From: Pleurocapsales cyanobacterium LEGE 06147
GTDB taxonomy: Bacteria; Cyanobacteriota; Cyanobacteriia; Cyanobacteriales; Xenococcaceae
DNA: 64,000 nucleotides
Reading direction: 5' to 3'
NCBI GenBank assembly: GCA_015207585.1
Contig: JADEWQ010000019.1
Location: 1-64,000 of the forward strand
Made by a program: the position numbers and the translations under genes. The notes below the pieces were generated by a model. The model did no database searches. It was given only the letters and a program-made list of their open reading frames with translations, and was not told the origin of the DNA. This document shows, in pieces, positions 7,616 through 60,389 of this stretch. How positions within the stretch are numbered: position 1 is the first letter of the stretch; each line of letters starts with the position of its first letter.

Positions 7616-8575
7616 ATGTATACCGTTAGCTTAGTTCGCGCTCATTCTTACGAATTAGAAAACTTGCGTTCCTCGATAGAATATTTGCTCGAACCATTAG
7701 GAGGAATCAAAGCTATCGTAAATTCGGGCGATCGCGTTCTGCTCAAACCCAATCTCCTGACAGGCAATCGTCCTACCAAAGAATGTATCACCCGCCCAGA
7801 ACTAGTTTATTGCGTAGCCCAATTAGTCAAAGAAGCTGGCGGCAAACCTTTTTTAGGCGATAGCCCTGCTTTTGGCAGTGCCAGAGGAGTAGCCAAAACC
7901 AATGGTTACCTACCATTAATCGAAGAACTAGATATACCCATTGTCGAATTTCACGGACAAAGATATCCCACAGAAAGCGATAATTTCAATCACCTGCGCC
8001 TTTCCAAAGAAGCAATGGAAGCAGATGCAGTCATTAACCTACCCAAAGTAAAATCTCACGCCCAGCTTACTCTCACTTTGGGAGTCAAAAATCTTTTTGG
8101 TTGCGTACCGGGCAAGATGAAAGCCTGGTGGCATATGGAAGCAGGAAAGGATGCCGATCGCTTTGGTGAAATGTTAGTCGAGACAGCAAGAGCGATCGCG
8201 CCTAACTTAACTATTATTGATGGTATTATCGGTCATGAAGGCAATGGTCCTAGTGGTGGCGAACCCCGCCAACTGGGATTTTTGGGAGCATCGACCGATG
8301 TTTTTGCCTTAGACCGAGCGATGGTAGATATTCTCAATGTCGATCCGGCTTTAGTCCCTACCTTAAAGGCACAAGCACGACTGAAATGTTGCTCGTCCCT
8401 ATCAGAAATTAACTTTCCTTACCTGCACCCAACCCAATTACAAATTACCGATTGGCGACTGCCCGATTCCTTAGTACCCATCGATTTTGGTTTACCCCGG
8501 GTGCTGCGTTCTACTTTTAAACATTTTTATATCCGATTTATTACGGAGCCGATGGCAGCTTACGCCAAAAAATAG
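7616..8575 (+). CDS. DUF362 domain-containing protein
   Basis: The 319-residue protein shows DUF362 features: a Lys-Pro-Asn segment (GDRVLLKPNLLTG), GDSPAFGS, AVINLPKVKSHAQL with TLGVKNLFGCVPG, and TIIDGIIGHEGNGPSGGEPR. Many DUF362 proteins are iron-sulfur associated, but this one lacks a C-terminal ferredoxin-like cysteine cluster, so it is the short form. The function is not established. I place the start at the ATG at 7616. It stands alone, with an intrinsic terminator about 90 bases downstream, and it marks the return from the decayed region to intact core genes. Confidence 0.85.
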   Translation: MYTVSLVRAHSYELENLRSSIEYLLEPLGGIKAIVNSGDRVLLKPNLLTGNRPTKECITRPELVYCVAQLVKEAGGKPFLGDSPAFGSARGVAKTNGYLPLIEELDIPIVEFHGQRYPTESDNFNHLRLSKEAMEADAVINLPKVKSHAQLTLTLGVKNLFGCVPGKMKAWWHMEAGKDADRFGEMLVETARAIAPNLTIIDGIIGHEGNGPSGGEPRQLGFLGASTDVFALDRAMVDILNVDPALVPTLKAQARLKCCSSLSEINFPYLHPTQLQITDWRLPDSLVPIDFGLPRVLRSTFKHFYIRFITEPMAAYAKK

Positions 8576-42867: not shown

Positions 42868-44226
42868 ATGTTACCTGAAAAAGATATTTATGAAGTAGCG
42901 ATCGTTGGTGCGGGAGTTTGCGGCACTGCCTTGCTATATACCTTAAGCAATTACACTAACGTCAATAAAATTGCTTTATTGGAAAAAAATCAGGCAGTTG
43001 CTTTAGTTAATTCTCATCAAAATAGTAATAGTCAAACCCTTCATTTTGGCGACATCGAAACTAATTATACGTTGGCCAAAGCACGAAAAGTTAATCTAGC
43101 AGCTAGTCTGGTTAAAAATTATCTACTGCGGTACGATCCACAACAAGAAATTTATACTAAATACCATAAAATGGTATTGGCTGTTGGCAAAGAGCAAACA
43201 GAACAAATTAGGAAAAGATATCAAGAATTTAAGCAGTTATTTCCTGAATTAAGATTAATAGAACGTCAGGAAATACAATCTATTGAACCAAAAGTTTTAC
43301 AAGGAAGAGATACCGAAGAAGAAATTTTGGCGTTATATACTCCAGAAGGTTATACAGTTGATTTTCAGAAGTTAGCTCAATCTTTTGTTAATAATGCTCT
43401 CAATATTTCAAATAAAACAATTGAGCTAATGATGGGAACAAAAGTCAAAAAAATAGAAACAAAAGAAGACCTTCTCTACATCCAAATGGATCGGAAAACG
43501 ATCGCAGCCAAAGCAGTAGCCGTGACGGCAGGTGCTCATAGCTTATTACTAGCAAAATCAATGGGTTATGGTCAAAATTATGCTCTTTTGAGCGTGGCGG
43601 GAAGTTTTTACTTTGCTCCAGAAATGCTCAACGGCAAAGTCTATACTGTACAACTTCAAAAATTACCATTTGCTGCCATTCACGGCGATCCCGAAGTACA
43701 CGATCGCCGTCACACTAGATTTGGTCCTACTGCTAAAGTATTGCCAATGTTAGAGCGGCATAATTATAGTACTGTTTGGGAGTATCTGCAGACAGCGGGG
43801 TTAAGTTTAGCTGCCTTTAAAAGTTTCTGGAAGATTCTCTCCGATCCGGTTATTTTTAAATATATATTGAAAAATTTCATCTACGACCTTCCTTTTATCG
43901 GCAAAAGACTGTTTATTGAAGAAGTACGCCACATTATTCCTTCAATTAAATTAAGCGAGTTGCAATTTGCCAAGGGATATGGAGGGATCAGACCGCAAAT
44001 TATCGATCTCAAGTCTCAAAGTTTGGAAATGGGAGAAGCCAAAATTGTTGGCGATCGCATTTTGTTTAACATCACTCCTTCTCCTGGTGCATCTACGTGT
44101 TTACAAAATGCGCAAGACGATACACGAAGATTGATTAGTTTTTTAGGAGAAGAATACACTTTTGACCAAGAAAGATTTTTAGCCGATCTAGCGAGCGACG
44201 AATTATGTCAAAGTCAGTCGGTTTAA
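42868..44226 (+). CDS. FAD-dependent oxidoreductase, malate:quinone oxidoreductase-like
   Basis: The N-terminal dinucleotide fold reads EVAIVGAGVCGTALLYTL, followed by ALLEKNQAVALVNSHQNSNS and TLHFGDIETNYTLAKARKV. This last pattern is typical of malate:quinone oxidoreductases, which pass electrons from malate to quinone. FAD-contact residues return in VAVTAGAHSLLLAKSMGYG and NITPSPGASTCLQNAQDD. At 452 residues it is shorter than E. coli Mqo (548), so a related hydroxyacid or amino acid oxidase is possible. The 3' end overlaps the stop of the convergent MscS gene by four bases. Confidence 0.75.
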   Translation: MLPEKDIYEVAIVGAGVCGTALLYTLSNYTNVNKIALLEKNQAVALVNSHQNSNSQTLHFGDIETNYTLAKARKVNLAASLVKNYLLRYDPQQEIYTKYHKMVLAVGKEQTEQIRKRYQEFKQLFPELRLIERQEIQSIEPKVLQGRDTEEEILALYTPEGYTVDFQKLAQSFVNNALNISNKTIELMMGTKVKKIETKEDLLYIQMDRKTIAAKAVAVTAGAHSLLLAKSMGYGQNYALLSVAGSFYFAPEMLNGKVYTVQLQKLPFAAIHGDPEVHDRRHTRFGPTAKVLPMLERHNYSTVWEYLQTAGLSLAAFKSFWKILSDPVIFKYILKNFIYDLPFIGKRLFIEEVRHIIPSIKLSELQFAKGYGGIRPQIIDLKSQSLEMGEAKIVGDRILFNITPSPGASTCLQNAQDDTRRLISFLGEEYTFDQERFLADLASDELCQSQSV

Positions 44227-45911
44227 TCTGAATAGATCGATTCTTCTTTGTCTGTTCCTGCGCCATTGGAATGGCGATTCAACCATACCTGCTGCTGCGG
44301 TGGAAGAATGGGGATGCCAGCACGCTTGAAAGCGATCGCGATGCGGCGGCGAAACTCTCGCGATACTTCCCATTGTTTGAGAGGTTCTGTTTTAATCCAA
44401 ACTTTAATAATTATGCCTCGATCTTCAAAATTGTCCACTCCAAGTACTTGAGGGGATTCTAATATTTTCTCTTGCCAAAGGGAATCTTGGCTCATTTCTT
44501 CTGCCACATGAGAGATTAAATGCAACGCTTTATCCACATCAGTATGATAAGCGATCGGAATGTTCAAATCCGCTCTCGACCATTGACTAGAAAGATTAGC
44601 AACTATCCTAATTTCACTATTAGGAACGGTGATTAATCGTCCCGCAGCATCCCTAAGCTGAGTAATCCGCAAATTCATATTTTCTACCAAACCATCAACT
44701 TCTCCAACTTTGATGACATCGCCAACAGCGTATTGGTCTTCGAGAAGAATAAAAAAACCGTTGATGGCATCTTTGATCAAGTTTTGCGAAGCCAAAGATA
44801 TGGCAAGACCGAGAATTCCAGCACCAGCTAACAAGGGAGCAACATTTACGCCAGCAACGGAAAAAGCCACTAAAATTCCTATTCCAGTCCAGATAACTGT
44901 AACTACACTTCTGCCAATTCTGGTAATAGTATTTACCCGCAATTGTGTGCGTTGATTGGCTCTCATACTTAATACATATGTACTACCAAAAAAGGTAGAG
45001 ACAAAACGAGCAATTAGCGCATAGCTGAGGCGAATAAAAAGGTAAGTGAGTATGCCAACGCCTACAATTATTAAAGGAATGCGAATAGCAACAATAATCA
45101 AAGTGTAAATTACTCGGGTATGGGGGAATAAAAACAGAACATATAAAATGCCTCCTCCCCAAAGAAGGATTCGTAATAATTGAAGCAATCGATATTGAAT
45201 TTCTTTAATATTCCAATGTTGCCTTTGAGTCAGCTGAGTCGATATAGGCGCAGAACGAGAACTTTCAGAGGGTGCTAGCTGTTGTCTTGATTTTCGCAAG
45301 CGGCGAATCCAACGAGAAATTGGCAAACTAGATAAGATGATAGCTACGCTTACGATAGCAGCTATTATTCCTTGACGAGCTAAAAATCCCGGTTGTCTTT
45401 GTTGTCTTGCTTGTTGAAAACCTCTCTCCAAGACTTCAATAATCTGGTCAGCTCTTGTGGGAACATTAACTCCATAGGCTTCAGCATCTTGACGAGTAAT
45501 AGTTAAAAGTCGGGCATCCTCATTCTCAATCGTGCGTTCTTTGCCTCTAACTTCAATATAGATATCCCATAAATTACCATTCTGTTGTTTTCTAATATTA
45601 AATTGCGTAGTCTCATCCTCTAAATAGACACTGCTAATATCATTAAATCTGCTCTGAATTACTTGAATTCTTTCAGATAACTCTGAAGGAGTTGTAGAGA
45701 CAATTTTAAATAAACAACGGCCATCTAGACGAATGCAACCAAATTCTTGGGAATGAGGTTGCATTTGACCGAGTATTTCTCTGTATTCTCTGAGGTTTTG
45801 TAGAGAAGGTAATTGAGCTTGGACTGAGGAGGCGACGAAAATAGTTATTGTTATTAAGCAGCTAATAATTGCAACGGTAATGTTTTTTTTGAACATAAAT
45901 TTATTGCTCAA
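44223..45911 (-). CDS. MscS-family mechanosensitive ion channel
   Basis: The 562-residue protein starts with a signal-like helix (VAIISCLITITIFVASSVQA) and a periplasmic domain of about 150 residues. Several membrane helices follow, then the MscS core: the pore helix region AGVNVAPLLAGAGILGLAIS, LASQNLIKDAINGFFILLED and the beta domain YAVGDVIKVGEVDGLVENMN. The C-terminal cytoplasmic cage includes ILESPQVLGVDNFEDRGIII. Such channels open under membrane tension to release solutes. The periplasmic domain places it with the larger, MscK-like cyanobacterial members. It is alone and convergent with the oxidoreductase gene. Confidence 0.92.
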   Translation of the reverse strand: MSNKFMFKKNITVAIISCLITITIFVASSVQAQLPSLQNLREYREILGQMQPHSQEFGCIRLDGRCLFKIVSTTPSELSERIQVIQSRFNDISSVYLEDETTQFNIRKQQNGNLWDIYIEVRGKERTIENEDARLLTITRQDAEAYGVNVPTRADQIIEVLERGFQQARQQRQPGFLARQGIIAAIVSVAIILSSLPISRWIRRLRKSRQQLAPSESSRSAPISTQLTQRQHWNIKEIQYRLLQLLRILLWGGGILYVLFLFPHTRVIYTLIIVAIRIPLIIVGVGILTYLFIRLSYALIARFVSTFFGSTYVLSMRANQRTQLRVNTITRIGRSVVTVIWTGIGILVAFSVAGVNVAPLLAGAGILGLAISLASQNLIKDAINGFFILLEDQYAVGDVIKVGEVDGLVENMNLRITQLRDAAGRLITVPNSEIRIVANLSSQWSRADLNIPIAYHTDVDKALHLISHVAEEMSQDSLWQEKILESPQVLGVDNFEDRGIIIKVWIKTEPLKQWEVSREFRRRIAIAFKRAGIPILPPQQQVWLNRHSNGAGTDKEESIYSD

Positions 45912-46310
45912 TTAATTGTCAATTAGTTAATAATTGATTTTAAAACCCTGTTTGAAAGCCAATGGTAATTAAAATTTGTTAACAAACCTATAATTTTCCA
46001 ATTAATTATTTTTATTTATGTTATAAAAAAATTTAATCCTAGTAAGTACGATTTTAAATTAAAGTTATCTTTCTGTTGAAATCAAAAAAATAATTTAGTC
46101 AAGCTCATTACACTGGAAAAAATTTAATTTTGACCTTTTCTAGGATAGACAAGATTTAAATAAAATGCACTAATTAAGTAAAAACACTGAATTAATATTA
46201 GGATAATCCTTAGTATTTCTTATTATCTGGGCTATTCGATTATCTACAAAAATAATAATGCTATTCTACTCATAGCCCCTGTTGTGTGGGAGTTGGGAGA
46301 GAGTTTGTTT
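45912..46310. other. AT-rich divergent promoter region before the MscS and GH5-like genes
   Basis: No gene is visible in about 400 bases of strongly AT-rich sequence. It presumably holds promoters for both flanking genes. I see no clear inverted repeat that suggests a specific operator. Confidence 0.4.
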
Positions 46311-47390
46311 ATGCGGCAAAGAACTAAAATCAGAAAAACAATAATGCGCCTACTCATGCTCGTTTTTAGCATAGTAGCCGCGATCGCCTTTGGGTGTCAG
46401 AACTCTTTTCCAGGACAATTTCAATCCACTAGTTTTTATACTGCCAATGGCAAGCTTTATGATGCTAACCGCAGTGAATTTATTCCCCGGGGTATAAATA
46501 ATCTTCACGTTTGGTTTGATGACAATGACGACGATGTTAAGGAAGCATTTGATGCTCTCGAAGATATTGCTGGCTTTGGATTTAACTCGGTTCGAGTTGT
46601 CTGGCAAGTTGAATTTTTAGGACGGAAAACTAACGATGCTACGCTAGAGCAAATTATCGAGCGTATTGTCGAGTTAAATATGATTCCGACGATCGGTATT
46701 TGGGATGTGACTGGTTCGACAGATAAAGACGCTTTTTTCAATAAAGTGGTATCTTGGTGGACCGATCGCTCTAAGCTATGGCAAAAGTATGAAAACAAAG
46801 TTCTCATCAACATAGCCAATGAGTTTGGCGACTATGAAATGGCTTACAAAGGAGATAGACGGGTTTTTCCAGAGATATATAAAGAAGCTATTACTCGCAT
46901 TCGCGATGCCGGCATTAATAACACACTGGTTATAGATTCTTTTGATTGGAGCAAAGATTATACGTTAATCGGAGACTTTGGTCGAGAAATTTATAACCAC
47001 GACCCTAAGAAAAATGTCGTGTTTGATATCCATTTCTACTGCGGTTCCGGAGAAAAGGAAGCTGAAATTACGGAGGCATTCAAGTCCATCACCGAACAAA
47101 AACTTCCCTTACTGGTAGGTGAGTTTTCTCATATGCACCCGATGCCCTGGGTTTCAGAAGAAGCAAAGTGTGATGTTAAGGAAAAATTTATCATGTCACA
47201 AGCGCAGAAGTATGGCGTGGGATATTATGCCTGGGCTTGGCACAATAAAGAATTTTCCGTCGCTTCAGATTGGAGAGCAACCTCTAGAAGACAATTGACT
47301 CCTTGGGGCAAAACCCTCGTATTCGACGATCCAAACAGTGTAGTCAAAACCGCTCACCTTGCTACGGTTTTCGATCGAGCTACTCGCTAA
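46311..47390 (+). CDS. Glycoside hydrolase family 5-like lipoprotein
   Basis: The predicted enzyme cleaves beta-1,4-glucan or mannan chains. The lipobox AIAFGC puts a lipidated Cys at residue 29. The TIM-barrel hallmarks follow: GINNLHVWFD, the strand-4 NE pair Asn170-Glu171 as acid/base in NIANEFGDY, HFYCGSG, and Glu271 in LLVGEFSH as nucleophile. RGINNL and VVWQVE fit family 5. I choose the ATG at 46311 with GGGAGA in front over an in-frame GTG 27 bases upstream. A GH9-like lipoprotein gene follows 21 bases later with a matching signal, so they form an operon. Confidence 0.87.
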   Translation: MRQRTKIRKTIMRLLMLVFSIVAAIAFGCQNSFPGQFQSTSFYTANGKLYDANRSEFIPRGINNLHVWFDDNDDDVKEAFDALEDIAGFGFNSVRVVWQVEFLGRKTNDATLEQIIERIVELNMIPTIGIWDVTGSTDKDAFFNKVVSWWTDRSKLWQKYENKVLINIANEFGDYEMAYKGDRRVFPEIYKEAITRIRDAGINNTLVIDSFDWSKDYTLIGDFGREIYNHDPKKNVVFDIHFYCGSGEKEAEITEAFKSITEQKLPLLVGEFSHMHPMPWVSEEAKCDVKEKFIMSQAQKYGVGYYAWAWHNKEFSVASDWRATSRRQLTPWGKTLVFDDPNSVVKTAHLATVFDRATR

Positions 47391-47411
47391 TGGGGCGAAC
47401 TAATACTTGAA

Positions 47412-49370
47412 GTGTTTATTATCTCGATCCAGCAATTGCGAAAAAGAACGAAACAGATACGCCTGCTATTGGCAATTTGTACCATAGCAGTGGCGATTGT
47501 CTTTGGCTGTCAAAACTTCGTACCGAAACAACTACCAGTCATCCCCTCTAATACCAGCGCACACATTAAAGTCGATCAATTCGGCTATCGACCAAAAGAT
47601 CCCAAAGTAGCAGTAATTAGCCAACCTAAACAAGGATTTAATCGAGACGAATCCTTTAATCCTGGAAAAACCTATCAAGTAAGACGTTGGGATAACAATG
47701 CAATAGTTTTTTCCGGAAAAACCATGCCTTGGCATGAAGGAAAAACTCAATCAACTTCAGGAGATCGAGGATGGTGGTTTGATTTTTCTGCACTAAAAAC
47801 TCCTGGCAGTTACTATGTCTTCGACCCGCAAAATCGGGTCAGATCCTATCGCTTTGACATCGATACTGATATCTATCGCTCGCTCCTCATTGCCGCTACC
47901 AGAATGTTCTTCTACAATCGCAGCGGCTATGCCAAAAAACCCCCTTTTGCCGACCCAAAATGGACCGACGAAGCCGCCTTTGTGAGGAGAAGACAAGATC
48001 GAGAGGCGCGATATATCTACGACAAAAATAATCCCCAAACCGCACGAGATTTAAGCGGAGGCTGGTTTGATGCCGGAGATACCAACAAATATGTTACCTT
48101 CGCTCAATCACCAGTACATCAGTTACTGACTGCTTATACCGAAAACCCCAAAATCTGGACTGATGACTTTAACCTACCCGAATCTGGCAATGGTATCCCC
48201 GATCTGATCGACGAAATTAAATGGGAAATCGACTGGCTCAAAAAAATGCAGAATGAAGATGGCGGTGTGCTGATTAAGATGGGAACCATCGACTACAATA
48301 ACGTATCTCCTCCCAGTAAAGATAGAAGACCCCGTTATTATGCTCCCGTTTGTTCTTCTTCAACTATTGCTGCAGCGAGTATGTTTGCTCATGGGGCAAT
48401 TGTTTTTAATTCCTTTGTTTCCCTATCTGGTTATGCCGAAGACCTCCAAAACCGAGGGATCGAAGCTTGGAATTGGTATCATTCTAACCCCAAGCGAGAT
48501 GACTGTGACTCTCTAGAGATCAAGTCAGGAGATGCTGATTGGGAGTTAGAAAAACAACAGCAAGAAAGCGTGGTGGCGGCAATCTATCTTTTTGCCCTTA
48601 CCGGCGATCGCCAATACCAGAACTATATCCAGCAAAACTACTTTAATACCAGACCCTACAATGACGATGGCTGGTCTCGCTACGACCCAGAACAAGGAGA
48701 TGCTTTACTCTACTATATAAAACTGCCCCAAGCAAATGCTGAAGTCAAAAGGAATATTCTTGACAAAAAACAGCAAGATGCCATTAATAGTGAAGATATC
48801 TACCAGTTTATCCCTGAAAAAGATTTATATCGCGCCTATATTACCGACTCTACCTACCATTGGGGCAGTAACTCCGCCAGAGCTAATAATGGCAATACTA
48901 ATTACGACGTAGTGGCTTATAATCTTGACCTGAGTCACCAAAAAAATTATGGCGAGGGCGAACGAAAAAAGCTAACTTCTCTCTACGCGCCTCAGCTTTA
49001 CCGCGATCGCGCTTTAGAAATTTTGCACTACTTCCATGGAGTCAATCCCTTCAATCTGGTGTATCTGTCCAATATGTATGCTTACGGTGCAGAAAATTCG
49101 GTCAATGAAATTTGGCACGATTGGTTTGCTGACGGAACGAAATACGATAATGCCCTGACTTCCCCTAATGGCCCGGCACCAGGCTACTTGACCGGAGGTC
49201 CTAACAAAAACTATACTGGTTCGGCTAGTCCACCTTTAGGAGAGCCTTACCAAAAAGCTTATAAAGATTGGAACAATGCTGCAGACCGAGCTTGGGAAAT
49301 TACCGAACCGGCAATCTATTATCAATCTGCCTATATTAAACTGTTATCAAAATTTGTCGAGGCAAGGTGA
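47412..49370 (+). CDS. Glycoside hydrolase family 9-like lipoprotein with N-terminal Ig-like domain
   Basis: GH9 enzymes are inverting endoglucanases. The signal ends in AIVFGC (Cys33), nearly the same as in the GH5-like neighbour. Residues 51-150 form the CelD-type Ig-like domain (IKVDQFGYRPKDPKVAVISQ). The alpha-barrel starts near 155, with the catalytic base pair in GGWFDAGDTNKYV (Asp220 and Asp223). Near the end a Glu in NAADRAWEITEPAIYYQSA is the likely acid. Length 652 is normal for this two-domain type. The start is a GTG. Signals on both genes place the pair on the cell surface or periplasm. Confidence 0.9.
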   Translation: MFIISIQQLRKRTKQIRLLLAICTIAVAIVFGCQNFVPKQLPVIPSNTSAHIKVDQFGYRPKDPKVAVISQPKQGFNRDESFNPGKTYQVRRWDNNAIVFSGKTMPWHEGKTQSTSGDRGWWFDFSALKTPGSYYVFDPQNRVRSYRFDIDTDIYRSLLIAATRMFFYNRSGYAKKPPFADPKWTDEAAFVRRRQDREARYIYDKNNPQTARDLSGGWFDAGDTNKYVTFAQSPVHQLLTAYTENPKIWTDDFNLPESGNGIPDLIDEIKWEIDWLKKMQNEDGGVLIKMGTIDYNNVSPPSKDRRPRYYAPVCSSSTIAAASMFAHGAIVFNSFVSLSGYAEDLQNRGIEAWNWYHSNPKRDDCDSLEIKSGDADWELEKQQQESVVAAIYLFALTGDRQYQNYIQQNYFNTRPYNDDGWSRYDPEQGDALLYYIKLPQANAEVKRNILDKKQQDAINSEDIYQFIPEKDLYRAYITDSTYHWGSNSARANNGNTNYDVVAYNLDLSHQKNYGEGERKKLTSLYAPQLYRDRALEILHYFHGVNPFNLVYLSNMYAYGAENSVNEIWHDWFADGTKYDNALTSPNGPAPGYLTGGPNKNYTGSASPPLGEPYQKAYKDWNNAADRAWEITEPAIYYQSAYIKLLSKFVEAR

Positions 49371-49516: not shown

Positions 49517-50806
<1,290 letters not shown>

Positions 50807-54867: not shown

Positions 54868-56361
54868 GTGCCTAAAATATTACCAAGTCAATTTATAATT
54901 CGTTGTTTAATTACTACAAGTTTAACAATCGGTAGCACCCTAATCGATCGGGGAGAAATAGGTAAGCCCGTACAAGCAGCAACCGGAGCTTATTGTCATT
55001 TTGACCAGACCGAAATACAAACAAAAGAAAAGCTACTTCAAGCTGCATTAGAAGGTGATTCTCAGGCATATCAGCAATACAAGCAACTTTTGCAACAACA
55101 CACCGCAATGCTACGTCAATGTCGTAGCACAACTTGGCCTCAAGAACAAGCAATTTGGTTGCGTCTCTATCCCTGTGATGTCAGTCCCGGCTCCATTGAC
55201 TATGTTCTCGATCGCATTGTCAATTTAGGCTACAACAAAATTTATCTAGAAGTCTTTTATGACAGTCAAGTTTTATTACCCCCAGCAGATAATCCTACTC
55301 CGTGGGTTCCGGTAGTTCGAGCTCCGGGGGCGGAAAATGTCGATCTTCTCGAACAAACCATCAAAAAAGGTCGCGAGAGGGGTTTACAAGTCTATGCTTG
55401 GCTGTTTACTATGAATTTTGGCTATACTTATGCCCAACTTGGCGATCGCCAGGAGGTGTTAGCCCGCAATGGTAGGGGAGAAAACACGATCGCTGTAGTC
55501 CACGACCGTTCCCAAGCTTTTATCGACCCTTACAATCGTCAGGCACAAATTGACTATCATCGTCTCGTCGAAGCGGTGCTCAGAAGACAACCAGATGGAG
55601 TTTTGTTTGACTACGTTCGTTATGCTCGCGGTACGGGGGGGCAATCGGTAGTTCATCACGTTAAGGATTTATGGATTTACAGTCCCGCCTCTTTGCAAGC
55701 CCTTTACAATCGCGCTAAAAATAAAAAAGCCCGAGCCTTAATCGAACGATACGTGACCAGAGGAAATATTACTGCTAGCGATATTACTACTGTTGACCAA
55801 CTTTATCCCGAAGAAGGCGCGCCTAACTGGCAAGGTCGTCAAATTAGCAGTACAGAAAGTAAACAATCACCCGCAGAGCGTCAGCAACGATTACAAGCCG
55901 AACTGTGGCACTTTACCGTCGCTCATGCTGCTCAAGGAGTTATCGATTTTCTTACTTCCGTCGCTTCCCCGGTTCAACGTCTGGGAATATCTACAGGGGC
56001 AGTCTTTTTTCCCGGTGCCAATCGCACGGTCGGTCGGGGCGGATTTGACTCTCGCCTGCAGGCTTGGGATAAGTTTCCTGCTTCGATGGAATGGCATCCC
56101 ATGGCTTACGCGGTATGTGAAGGCACTGATTGTATTGTCAATGAAGTGAAAACCGTACTCCAAAGTGCGCCTGCAGGCACAAAAGTGATTCCCGCGCTTG
56201 CCGGTGCTTGGGGTAGGACTTACGATAAGCATCCTCCTCTAGAAGCCCAAATGCGTGCCCTGCGTAATTCATTTCCCCAAATTAATTCTGTCAGTCATTT
56301 TTCCTATTCTTGGCAGGAACCAGAAATAGACCGCCAACGTAAATTCTGTAATTTGCAATGA
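54868..56361 (+). CDS. Putative GH10-like glycosyl hydrolase (GHL10/DUF187-type), secreted
   Basis: The 497-residue protein has an N-terminal signal segment (CLITTSLTIGSTLI), a helical spacer (residues 40-90) and a TIM-barrel-like domain: AIWLRLYPCDVSPGSIDYVL, NKIYLEVFYDSQVLLPPADN, RGLQVYAWLFTMNFGYTYAQ, then DPYNRQAQIDYHRLVEAVLR and PDGVLFDYVRYARG, where the Asp-Tyr-x-Arg-Tyr group is typical of this family. The C-terminal part holds HPMAYAVCEG. Substrate unknown. The start is a GTG at 54868 with GGGAGA in front. The next gene overlaps its stop by four bases. Confidence 0.8.
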   Translation: MPKILPSQFIIRCLITTSLTIGSTLIDRGEIGKPVQAATGAYCHFDQTEIQTKEKLLQAALEGDSQAYQQYKQLLQQHTAMLRQCRSTTWPQEQAIWLRLYPCDVSPGSIDYVLDRIVNLGYNKIYLEVFYDSQVLLPPADNPTPWVPVVRAPGAENVDLLEQTIKKGRERGLQVYAWLFTMNFGYTYAQLGDRQEVLARNGRGENTIAVVHDRSQAFIDPYNRQAQIDYHRLVEAVLRRQPDGVLFDYVRYARGTGGQSVVHHVKDLWIYSPASLQALYNRAKNKKARALIERYVTRGNITASDITTVDQLYPEEGAPNWQGRQISSTESKQSPAERQQRLQAELWHFTVAHAAQGVIDFLTSVASPVQRLGISTGAVFFPGANRTVGRGGFDSRLQAWDKFPASMEWHPMAYAVCEGTDCIVNEVKTVLQSAPAGTKVIPALAGAWGRTYDKHPPLEAQMRALRNSFPQINSVSHFSYSWQEPEIDRQRKFCNLQ

Positions 56362-58295: not shown

Positions 58296-60389
58296 TCAAG
58301 AATTTTTTGCTCCCTTCGATTGAACTGGCCAAAGATAAAACCAATTTTTGCCTTTCTGTAAATTTTGAAAGGGTCCGGCTAATAAATTTTCTGTTGGCAT
58401 GGGATTAGCAAAAAAATCTCGGTCAACTCCTCGGACAGATGGAGGATGAAGCATTTGGAAAGGTTCATCGCTATCAAATTCAATGTATTGTCCGCGAGCC
58501 GATAAGTTCATACTTCCTTTTTCAATAGCACCAACTTCGACTTCGCCAAGGTCTATTTCTGGAACCACGCTGTGGAGATCGTTTTCAGTCAGAACTCTCC
58601 ACCAATTCAGGGTTAGATAGGGTTGCTCGACCCACAGTTCAAGATTGGGTTTTTCAGCAAAATTGCCAGCCTCGAGAGCGGCTCGGAATGCCTCTAGCAA
58701 CTGTTCTCGTTTAATTCGTCCATCGTTAGTGTTGAGTACAAAACGAGCGAAGCCCAAGCCTTCCCATTGCCACTGCGTCCCGCCGACCAGTAAATTGTAG
58801 TCCGAGCGATTGTCGAAGCCTCGTTCCGAAGGCAACGGCAGACAGATGTTCCCCCGATAATTGTCTACAAAAACATTGTTATAGATTCTTTGGTGGGAAG
58901 TCTCAACCATCTTGAGTTCTCCGTTGTCCTGTTTGAACTTGCGTTCGGTGACCGTGCGCATATAAACGCCGAAGTGAGAGTTACCGTAAAGCAAGTTGTG
59001 GGCTACGGTTACACCGGAGGCATCGTGAGTATAAATACCATCGCCAATTCTGGTGTAAGCGACAACATTGTTATCTACTAAAATCGGTCCGTTTCCCATT
59101 TCAACAAAAATACCCGACCCTAAATTATTGATTACTACGTTTCTGGTAACTCGAGAGTTTTGCCAGATGTTATCTAACCAAATACCAGAGGCATCGTTAT
59201 CTCGGACGAGATTGGCTTCAATCAGACCATCGACAAACATGTGAACTTTGATGCCGCCAGTTTCCGGTGCCGTCCAACCAAGTCGGTTATTGCGTTCGAT
59301 TTGGTTACCAATAATCTGCGTACCCGTATGCCTCCAACCAGCAATACCACAGCAACCGTTATCGTTAATTAGATTATTACGGATGAGATGATAGCCTACA
59401 ACTTCTGGGATTGGTTCTCCTGCTATCACGTAAGGAGCTTCGCTGCCACAGTCTAAACCAATTGCTTTAGCATAGCGAATTATATTGTCCTCAATAACCC
59501 AGTGATGACCGCTTCGAGTTCCTACAGCACCCGTCTGAGGAGAATTTTCTTTATCCCAAAAGGCACTGGGAAACTGATTGGCAGCGTGCTCGAAGGTAAA
59601 GCCTCGGACATAAATATAACCTAAACCACGTTGGTAGGGAGCGAAAATCCGTTCGCGAACCGTCACTTCTACCAGTCGCGATTGAGCGAGTCGGACGCGG
59701 GAACTTGGTTCCCGCGTAGGAGACTCGGTGACTTCCCGTGGGGTTGGCGAAGAAGAAAAGTGAACGTAGAGGCGATCCTTGTCGGGAGCGAACATCCAGC
59801 TATTTTCCTTATTCAACAACTGCTCTAACGAATCCACCTCGTCTAGCGGTTCCCCATCAACAAAAACTTGTCCGAGTGTTCGATTCCCATTCATTCTTTT
59901 TAGCTCGATGCGATAGGGATTATAATCGCTCAAATCGCTGAATATATCTGAGTTGAGAGTACCGCTGTAAACATTGGGATAACTTTCTAAGGGTTGGGGT
60001 TCGGGAGACCAAATTTCAGAACCTTTGACGATCGCTGTTTCACCGGGAGCAGCTCTATAAATAATCGGATGCTCTGGCTCGCCTCCCCGTGCAGGAGCTA
60101 TCCGTTCGCGGTAGATGCCTGAATAAACGAGTATAGTATCTCCAGGACGAGCAAGTTCGGCCGCACGAGAGATAGTTTTAAAGGGTCGTGTTTGTGTGCC
60201 CCCACCCTCGTCTGACGCCTTTGGATGATTCTGATTGACGATCCAAATTCTAAAACTAGGAGTCTGAGCTTTTGTCTGCTCGTCTGCCGAGTCCACCGTC
60301 ACTAGCAACATCAACATCAATGCTAGTAGATAAATAAATCTACGTCTTGTCAAGAGAAGCAATAAATGGGAGGGTTGAATTGAGAACAT
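58296..60389 (-). CDS. Right-handed parallel beta-helix protein, exported
   Basis: The 697-residue protein begins with a signal or anchor helix (FIYLLALMLMLLVTV). The DUF1565-type start TQTRPFKTISRAAELARPGD then DTILVYSGIYRERIA leads to a long run of PbH1 rungs (HLIRNNLINDNGCCGIAGWR, IIGNQIERNNRLGW, VTRNVVINNLGSGIFVEMGN, YNNVFVDNYRGNICLP). This fold is used by polysaccharide lyases, epimerases and adhesins, and no catalytic site is clear. At about residues 221-241 (PREVTESPTREPSSRVR) an abrupt Pro/Arg/Ser segment is encoded by a nested-hairpin repeat at 59688-59726 on the reverse strand. Confidence 0.88.
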   Translation of the reverse strand: MFSIQPSHLLLLLTRRRFIYLLALMLMLLVTVDSADEQTKAQTPSFRIWIVNQNHPKASDEGGGTQTRPFKTISRAAELARPGDTILVYSGIYRERIAPARGGEPEHPIIYRAAPGETAIVKGSEIWSPEPQPLESYPNVYSGTLNSDIFSDLSDYNPYRIELKRMNGNRTLGQVFVDGEPLDEVDSLEQLLNKENSWMFAPDKDRLYVHFSSSPTPREVTESPTREPSSRVRLAQSRLVEVTVRERIFAPYQRGLGYIYVRGFTFEHAANQFPSAFWDKENSPQTGAVGTRSGHHWVIEDNIIRYAKAIGLDCGSEAPYVIAGEPIPEVVGYHLIRNNLINDNGCCGIAGWRHTGTQIIGNQIERNNRLGWTAPETGGIKVHMFVDGLIEANLVRDNDASGIWLDNIWQNSRVTRNVVINNLGSGIFVEMGNGPILVDNNVVAYTRIGDGIYTHDASGVTVAHNLLYGNSHFGVYMRTVTERKFKQDNGELKMVETSHQRIYNNVFVDNYRGNICLPLPSERGFDNRSDYNLLVGGTQWQWEGLGFARFVLNTNDGRIKREQLLEAFRAALEAGNFAEKPNLELWVEQPYLTLNWWRVLTENDLHSVVPEIDLGEVEVGAIEKGSMNLSARGQYIEFDSDEPFQMLHPPSVRGVDRDFFANPMPTENLLAGPFQNLQKGKNWFYLWPVQSKGAKNS
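59688..59726. repeat. Nested-hairpin repeat, copy 3, inside the beta-helix gene
   Basis: The outer stem GAGTC/GACTC (59688-59726) encloses the inner stem ACGCGGGAAC-TTG-GTTCCCGCGT (59695-59717, perfect 10 bp). The element is 39 bases, a multiple of three, and the host frame stays open. Confidence 0.7.

Follow-up and report, generated by a model that had tools for sequence, protein, structure and literature searches.

Two adjoining glycoside hydrolase genes

The window, a 64,000-nucleotide stretch of the genome of the Xenococcaceae-type cyanobacterium Pleurocapsales LEGE 06147, contains a GH5 gene and a CelD_N-GH9 gene that adjoin on one strand (Table 1). The GH5 gene starts with ATG at 46311, with an alternative GTG upstream at 46284, and stops at 47388-47390; its product is laid out as a leader followed by a (beta/alpha)8 barrel. 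The GH9 gene starts with GTG at 47412 and stops at 49368-49370. Open reading frames and Pfam matches confirmed the initial annotation of two genes from different GH families separated by 21 bp, and no terminator-like site was found in the gap. The pair is flanked by a gene for an MscS-type mechanosensitive channel and by a gene that we take, from reading its sequence, to be ahcY, whose product is 79-91% identical to counterparts in relatives. No EPS or cellulose gene adjoins the pair in the LEGE 06147 genome, and no sugar-uptake genes were seen beside it when the ORFs were read. Elsewhere in the window, positions 54868-56361 encode a weak GHL10-type glycosidase-like protein and positions 58296-60389 a right-handed beta-helix protein that possibly acts on polysaccharides.

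Table 1. Positions in the window of the gene pair, its predicted leaders and its flanking genes.
Feature	Position	Strand	Basis
MscS-type mechanosensitive channel, left flank of the pair	44223..45911	-	Pfam; synteny
GH5_8-like predicted lipoprotein gene, 359 aa	46311..47390	+	Pfam PF00150, PDB sequence matches, fold comparison, residue audit
Predicted GH5 N-terminal leader, lipobox ...AIAFG-C29 then QNSF	46311..46409	+	Homology to GH9 leader
Intergenic gap, 21 bp	47391..47411		Between GH5 and GH9
CelD_N-GH9 predicted lipoprotein gene, 652 aa	47412..49370	+	Pfam PF02927 and PF00759, PDB matches, alignments
Predicted GH9 N-terminal leader, lipobox ...AIVFG-C33 then QNFVPKQ	47412..47531	+	Homology to GH5 leader
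Adenosylhomocysteinase-like gene (presumed ahcY), right flank of the pair	49529..50806	+	Conservation in relatives; synteny

The gene pair is real and uncommon, and it is assembled from known enzyme families. Its rarity was surveyed in 389 sampled genomes of the order, with thresholds of E <=1e-20 for GH5 and E <=1e-50 for GH9. A GH5 relative was present in 7 of the 389 genomes and a GH9 relative in 10, and LEGE 06147 was the only genome with both, which bears out the earlier remark that such a coupled pair is unusual. In three relatives (G010, G004 and G029) mscS and ahcY are divergent neighbours with about 200-600 bp between the coding regions, and nothing resembling the pair lies in that interval. 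The pair therefore looks like a local addition. A recent transfer marked by odd base composition was not supported, as the GC content of the genes (about 0.35-0.44) matches that of their neighbours. Plasmid searches returned only relatives of <=46% identity, and none carried both genes in one place. In the mscS-ahcY interval of G010 (L111, about 7833-8404), an apparent broken start of a DNA methyltransferase (FIDLFAGIGGMRIAW) was read by eye; this remnant suggests a permissive insertion site.

A homologous leader on two unrelated enzymes

Both N-termini, as read from the sequence, have the basic start, hydrophobic stretch and Cys-ending lipobox of bacterial lipoproteins, and in both the Cys is directly followed by QN (AIAFGCQN and AIVFGCQN). 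The Ala at -3 of the GH5 lipobox is acceptable, though commoner residues exist at this position. The +2 residue is Gln rather than Asp, which in E. coli would favour the outer membrane. We infer from these features that both predicted proteins are lipidated and located at the envelope.

The near-identical signal endings (AIAFGC and AIVFGC) pointed out in the initial annotation are present, and the likeness extends well beyond them. The two leaders aligned with a local protein score of 74, compared with <=49 for shuffles (n=2000) and <=42 across the 344 other N-termini compared. At the DNA level the score was 57, compared with <=32 for codon shuffles (n=2000) and <=34 among 2424 other window segments; the local alignment spans about positions 46326-46404 on the GH5 side. 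With scores this far beyond chance, the two unrelated enzymes carry a homologous leader of ~30 residues, and by these alignments the homology holds at the DNA level too, beyond mere resemblance. It is a clean case of two unrelated enzymes bearing the same address tag. Neither leader of the pair resembles those of the GH9 relatives or that of a GH5 lipoprotein from another genome (G005); against these the GH9 leader scored 18-24. When the GH5 leader was run against the genome by blastn, no further convincing copy came up, but this is a weak search, as it missed the GH9 leader too.

A mannanase-like GH5 protein with an altered active site

The GH5 protein matched the Pfam Cellulase family (PF00150, E 2.6e-20). 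In phmmer searches against the PDB, however, GH5_8 chains were found at 1e-48 to 1e-27 and the next GH5 group at 2e-5; the best solved sequence relative was 1WKY (E 1.2e-48, 35% identity). For a predicted model with a pLDDT of 75, the ten nearest folds were all GH5_8 beta-mannanases (Z 34.5-36.9; 1WKY, Z 36.8), whereas cellulases reached a Z of at most 25.4. As judged from sequence and predicted fold, the protein affiliates with the GH5_8 endo-beta-1,4-mannanases rather than with glucanases. The pair had been described as two beta-glucanases of different families. The two families stand, but because the nearest solved relatives of the GH5 protein are GH5_8 mannanases, beta-glucanase is not its best label. 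Every GH5_8 member characterised to date is an extracellular endo-mannanase (PMC3526467). The hosts named in a study of the subfamily are Firmicutes, Actinomycetia and Proteobacteria (PMC8952944), and the cyanobacterial host of the window GH5 lies outside these phyla.

Eight active-site residues are conserved in GH5_8: Arg, His, Asn, Glu, His, Tyr, Glu and Trp (PMC3978015, PMC3059134). A residue audit found seven of them in the GH5 protein (R95, N170, E171, H241, Y243, E271 and W308), including an intact catalytic Glu pair, with E171 as the acid/base after N170 and E271 as the nucleophile in a GEF motif. The first conserved His is replaced by W131. All four nearest GH5 homologues have His at this position, and two remote cyanobacterial GH5 proteins (L059 and L060) have Trp or Phe. 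In SACTE_2347 and TfManA the position lines the -2/-3 subsites (PMC3978015), and the change from His to Trp makes an altered specificity probable. The His is also absent from the ME and HJ mannanases (PMC3059134), so its loss need not abolish activity. With one of the eight residues replaced, the protein was filed as a diverged GH5_8 derivative and not as a standard mannanase. It resembles the GH5_8 mannanases 1WKY, 2WHJ, 3JUG, 1BQC and 4FK9 in fold and sequence and shares both catalytic Glu residues and the Arg, Asn, His241, Tyr and Trp, but it differs from them in Trp131, in its lipoprotein leader and in the lack of a CBM.

The genome contains a second GH5 (G000:C161:11171-12637), which is linked to a CBM2 and is 64% identical over the barrel. 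This paralogue is the sister of the window GH5 in the tree (support 98/95). It differs from the window GH5 in having the CBM2, in keeping the His, in evolving more slowly and in showing no obvious signal peptide where the window GH5 bears a leader. The CBM was probably lost from the window GH5 rather than gained by the paralogue. Branch lengths were 0.12 for the paralogue and 0.38 for the window GH5, and relative-rate tests with three outgroups gave p values of 8e-4, 8e-5 and 2e-7. Among sites fixed in four homologues, 38 are altered in the window GH5 as compared to 5 in the paralogue. The rate tests and the lineage changes indicate that the window GH5 diverged fast after duplication. Between the two copies dN was 0.23 and dS 1.31, and the resulting dN/dS of about 0.18 indicates that the window GH5 is still under constraint.

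The CBM2-GH5 proteins at L040:11171-12637 and L050:9712-11490 begin at the CBM2 with no visible signal peptide. Another protein, at L049:1-2586, is an odd mix in which an inosine-uridine nucleoside hydrolase domain is joined to a GH5 and a CBM2, with Pro-Val-Glu repeat linkers.

The GH9 protein and its relatives

The GH9 protein matched CelD_N (PF02927, E 3.4e-16) and Glyco_hydro_9 (PF00759, E 2.8e-54), both over the curated cut-off. Alignment showed that it retains the catalytic Asp pair of the DAGD motif (D220 and D223) and the C-terminal E632, so that the catalytic carboxylates are lost from neither member of the pair. The usual GH9 substrate-binding signature is H-x-R, and where it is expected the window GH9 has H569-D-W571. 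The Trp is kept across the subfamily, which makes H-x-W a subfamily trait, and its presence in place of H-x-R means that the substrate may not be cellulose. The GH9s with an N-terminal Ig-like domain (3X17, 5U0H J30, 1UT9 and 1CLC) share the CelD_N and GH9 domains, the DAGD motif and the C-terminal Glu with the window GH9. They are distant from it in sequence (best E 2.9e-43), and it differs from them in H-x-W and in the lipoprotein leader.

GH9 orthologues of 55-57% identity were found in Hyella patelloides, Xenococcus sp. MO_188.B8, Pleurocapsales LEGE 10410, an uncultured Xenococcaceae and Arthrospira sp. PCC 9108, and further relatives in Nevskia, Panacagrimonas, Thiosymbion and Rubrivivax. 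The Hyella, Xenococcus and LEGE 10410 proteins, at 56-57% identity, likewise have Cys-containing leaders of lipoprotein type, but these are dissimilar to the leader of the window GH9. No GH5 relative was found near the GH9 gene at any GH9 locus inspected. The GH9 gene of G357 has a 4-bp overlap with a Wzy_C gene and lies near Wzc-, sulfotransferase- and GT-type genes, and that of G368 comes after Wzy_C, flippase and GT genes. Placement in these Wzy/Wzx EPS clusters suggests that, at least there, the enzyme works on polysaccharide made by the producer itself. The GH9 genes of Hyella, Xenococcus, LEGE 10410 and Arthrospira have apparently unrelated neighbours.

A second GH9 group that looks membrane-anchored was seen at L030, L033, L034 and L035 (in G020, G018, G015 and G025, respectively). 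Its DAGD motif is worn (HDTGA, HDGGS, HNGGG) and the catalytic Glu is absent in two members; by sequence these are probable pseudo-enzymes. A remote GH9 gene at L106:8260-12311 (G056) shares 4 bp with a GH2-family gene, and OpgC- and GDSL-lipase-like genes lie in the vicinity. This locus is another glycan-modifying cluster.

Cellulose synthases and other glycosidases in the genome

The LEGE 06147 genome was searched family by family. As the initial annotation held, no cellulose synthase is in the window (contig C222); three BcsA-like GT2 proteins are encoded elsewhere, on contigs C240 and C140. All three contain QxxRW and gave strong scores, yet none reached the cut-off curated for the cellulose-synthase model. 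One of them, compared to solved structures, matched E. coli-type BcsA best (5.8e-88). Two of the genes stand in tandem and encode PilZ domains (L041:11869-16562), with no HlyD or endoglucanase neighbour.

One GH9, two GH5 and no GH8 endoglucanase were counted. The single GH3 is of the beta-N-acetylhexosaminidase type; its reading as a cellobiase was rejected, its best match being the beta-N-acetylhexosaminidase model, though below the cut-off of that model. There is also one GH1 beta-glucosidase-like protein, with which the use of cellobiose is possible.

Known cyanobacterial cellulose operons include an endoglucanase gene, XcsC; in T. vulcanus, as here, the genes are scattered, and the accessory parts of the cyanobacterial system are poorly defined (PMC12430437). 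XcsC in these operons provides a precedent for a self-trimming pair. The BcsZ and XcsC endoglucanases have the job proposed here, the trimming of the producer's own beta-glucan, and BcsA-like genes are found in this genome too. However, the window pair is unlinked to the synthase genes, which lie on other contigs, and BcsZ belongs to GH8, a family other than those of the pair and absent from this genome.

Proposed role of the pair

The best explanation, to which we give about an even chance, is that the two genes form a unit whose products are exported, lipid-anchored glycanases working on the beta-1,4 coat polysaccharide of the cell itself, either cellulose or a glucomannan-like EPS. The GH9 would be the likely working endo-beta-1,4-glucanase. 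The GH5 would have arisen by duplication of a CBM2-linked GH5_8 mannanase, lost the CBM, acquired a lipoprotein leader homologous to that of the GH9, and diverged fast with a subsite changed from His to Trp. Its specificity has probably shifted, so that it binds or cuts a related chain. With both enzymes at the envelope, the matrix may be loosened or trimmed in growth, cell separation or secretion. We infer the pair's co-expression, as well as its substrate and biological role.

That the pair works on the matrix of its own cell had been among the earlier suggestions, and this is favoured by the EPS clusters that hold the GH9 of relatives and by the synthases elsewhere in the genome; the lack of a GH8 was also counted in its favour. 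Standing against it are the CBM2 on the paralogue, the GH1, the lack of an adjoining EPS or cellulose gene, the apparently unrelated neighbours of the GH9 gene in four relatives, and the H-x-W of the GH9. A CBM2 is a module common among enzymes that degrade outside polymers. The earlier interpretation is partly supported. What is new is the shared leader, the descent of the GH5 from mannanases rather than glucanases, its altered active site and fast divergence, and the empty site in relatives. The pair bears on a largely open question, namely what cyanobacteria employ to trim or loosen their sheath or to release it. Its substrate, anchoring and role can be tested directly, since the pair is compact and lineage-specific and an unmodified paralogue elsewhere in the genome serves as a natural control. 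More specifically, a mannanase-derived GH5 re-tooled with a GH9-homologous leader may be the co-anchored partner of the GH9 in a two-protein machine that remodels the coat at the envelope, a proposal that we regard as doubtful.

Feeding was the other suggestion, with the pair cutting external cellulose, mannan or algal wall for a surface-living host that takes up the sugars. This would agree with the extracellular action of all characterised GH5_8 enzymes (PMC3526467), with the CBM2 on the paralogue, with the GH1 gene and with seaweed as the home of some Pleurocapsales (PMC8580901). However, the enzyme set is very small (one GH9, two GH5, no GH8 and one hexosaminidase-type GH3), the ORFs read beside the pair include none for sugar uptake, and the GH9 relatives sit in EPS clusters. 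Feeding is rather unlikely, and less likely than remodelling of the cell's own coat.

It is also improbable that the GH5 is a pseudo-enzyme, a non-hydrolytic carbohydrate-binding partner that leaves the cutting to the GH9. The replaced His would line the -2/-3 subsites (PMC3978015), the lineage-specific changes are many (38 compared to 5) and the rate is fast, and a lipoprotein, apparently inactive GH5_8 offshoot is on record (PMC3526467). Yet both catalytic Glu and five more conserved residues are retained, the ME and HJ mannanases likewise lack this His (PMC3059134), and the dN/dS points to continuing constraint. That the genes are chance neighbours, gained independently at a permissive intergenic site and without joint function, is very improbable: the pair is found in no other genome searched and the apparent broken methyltransferase read by eye in G010 suggests such a site, but the leaders are homologous and the genes lie 21 bp apart on one strand with no terminator between them.
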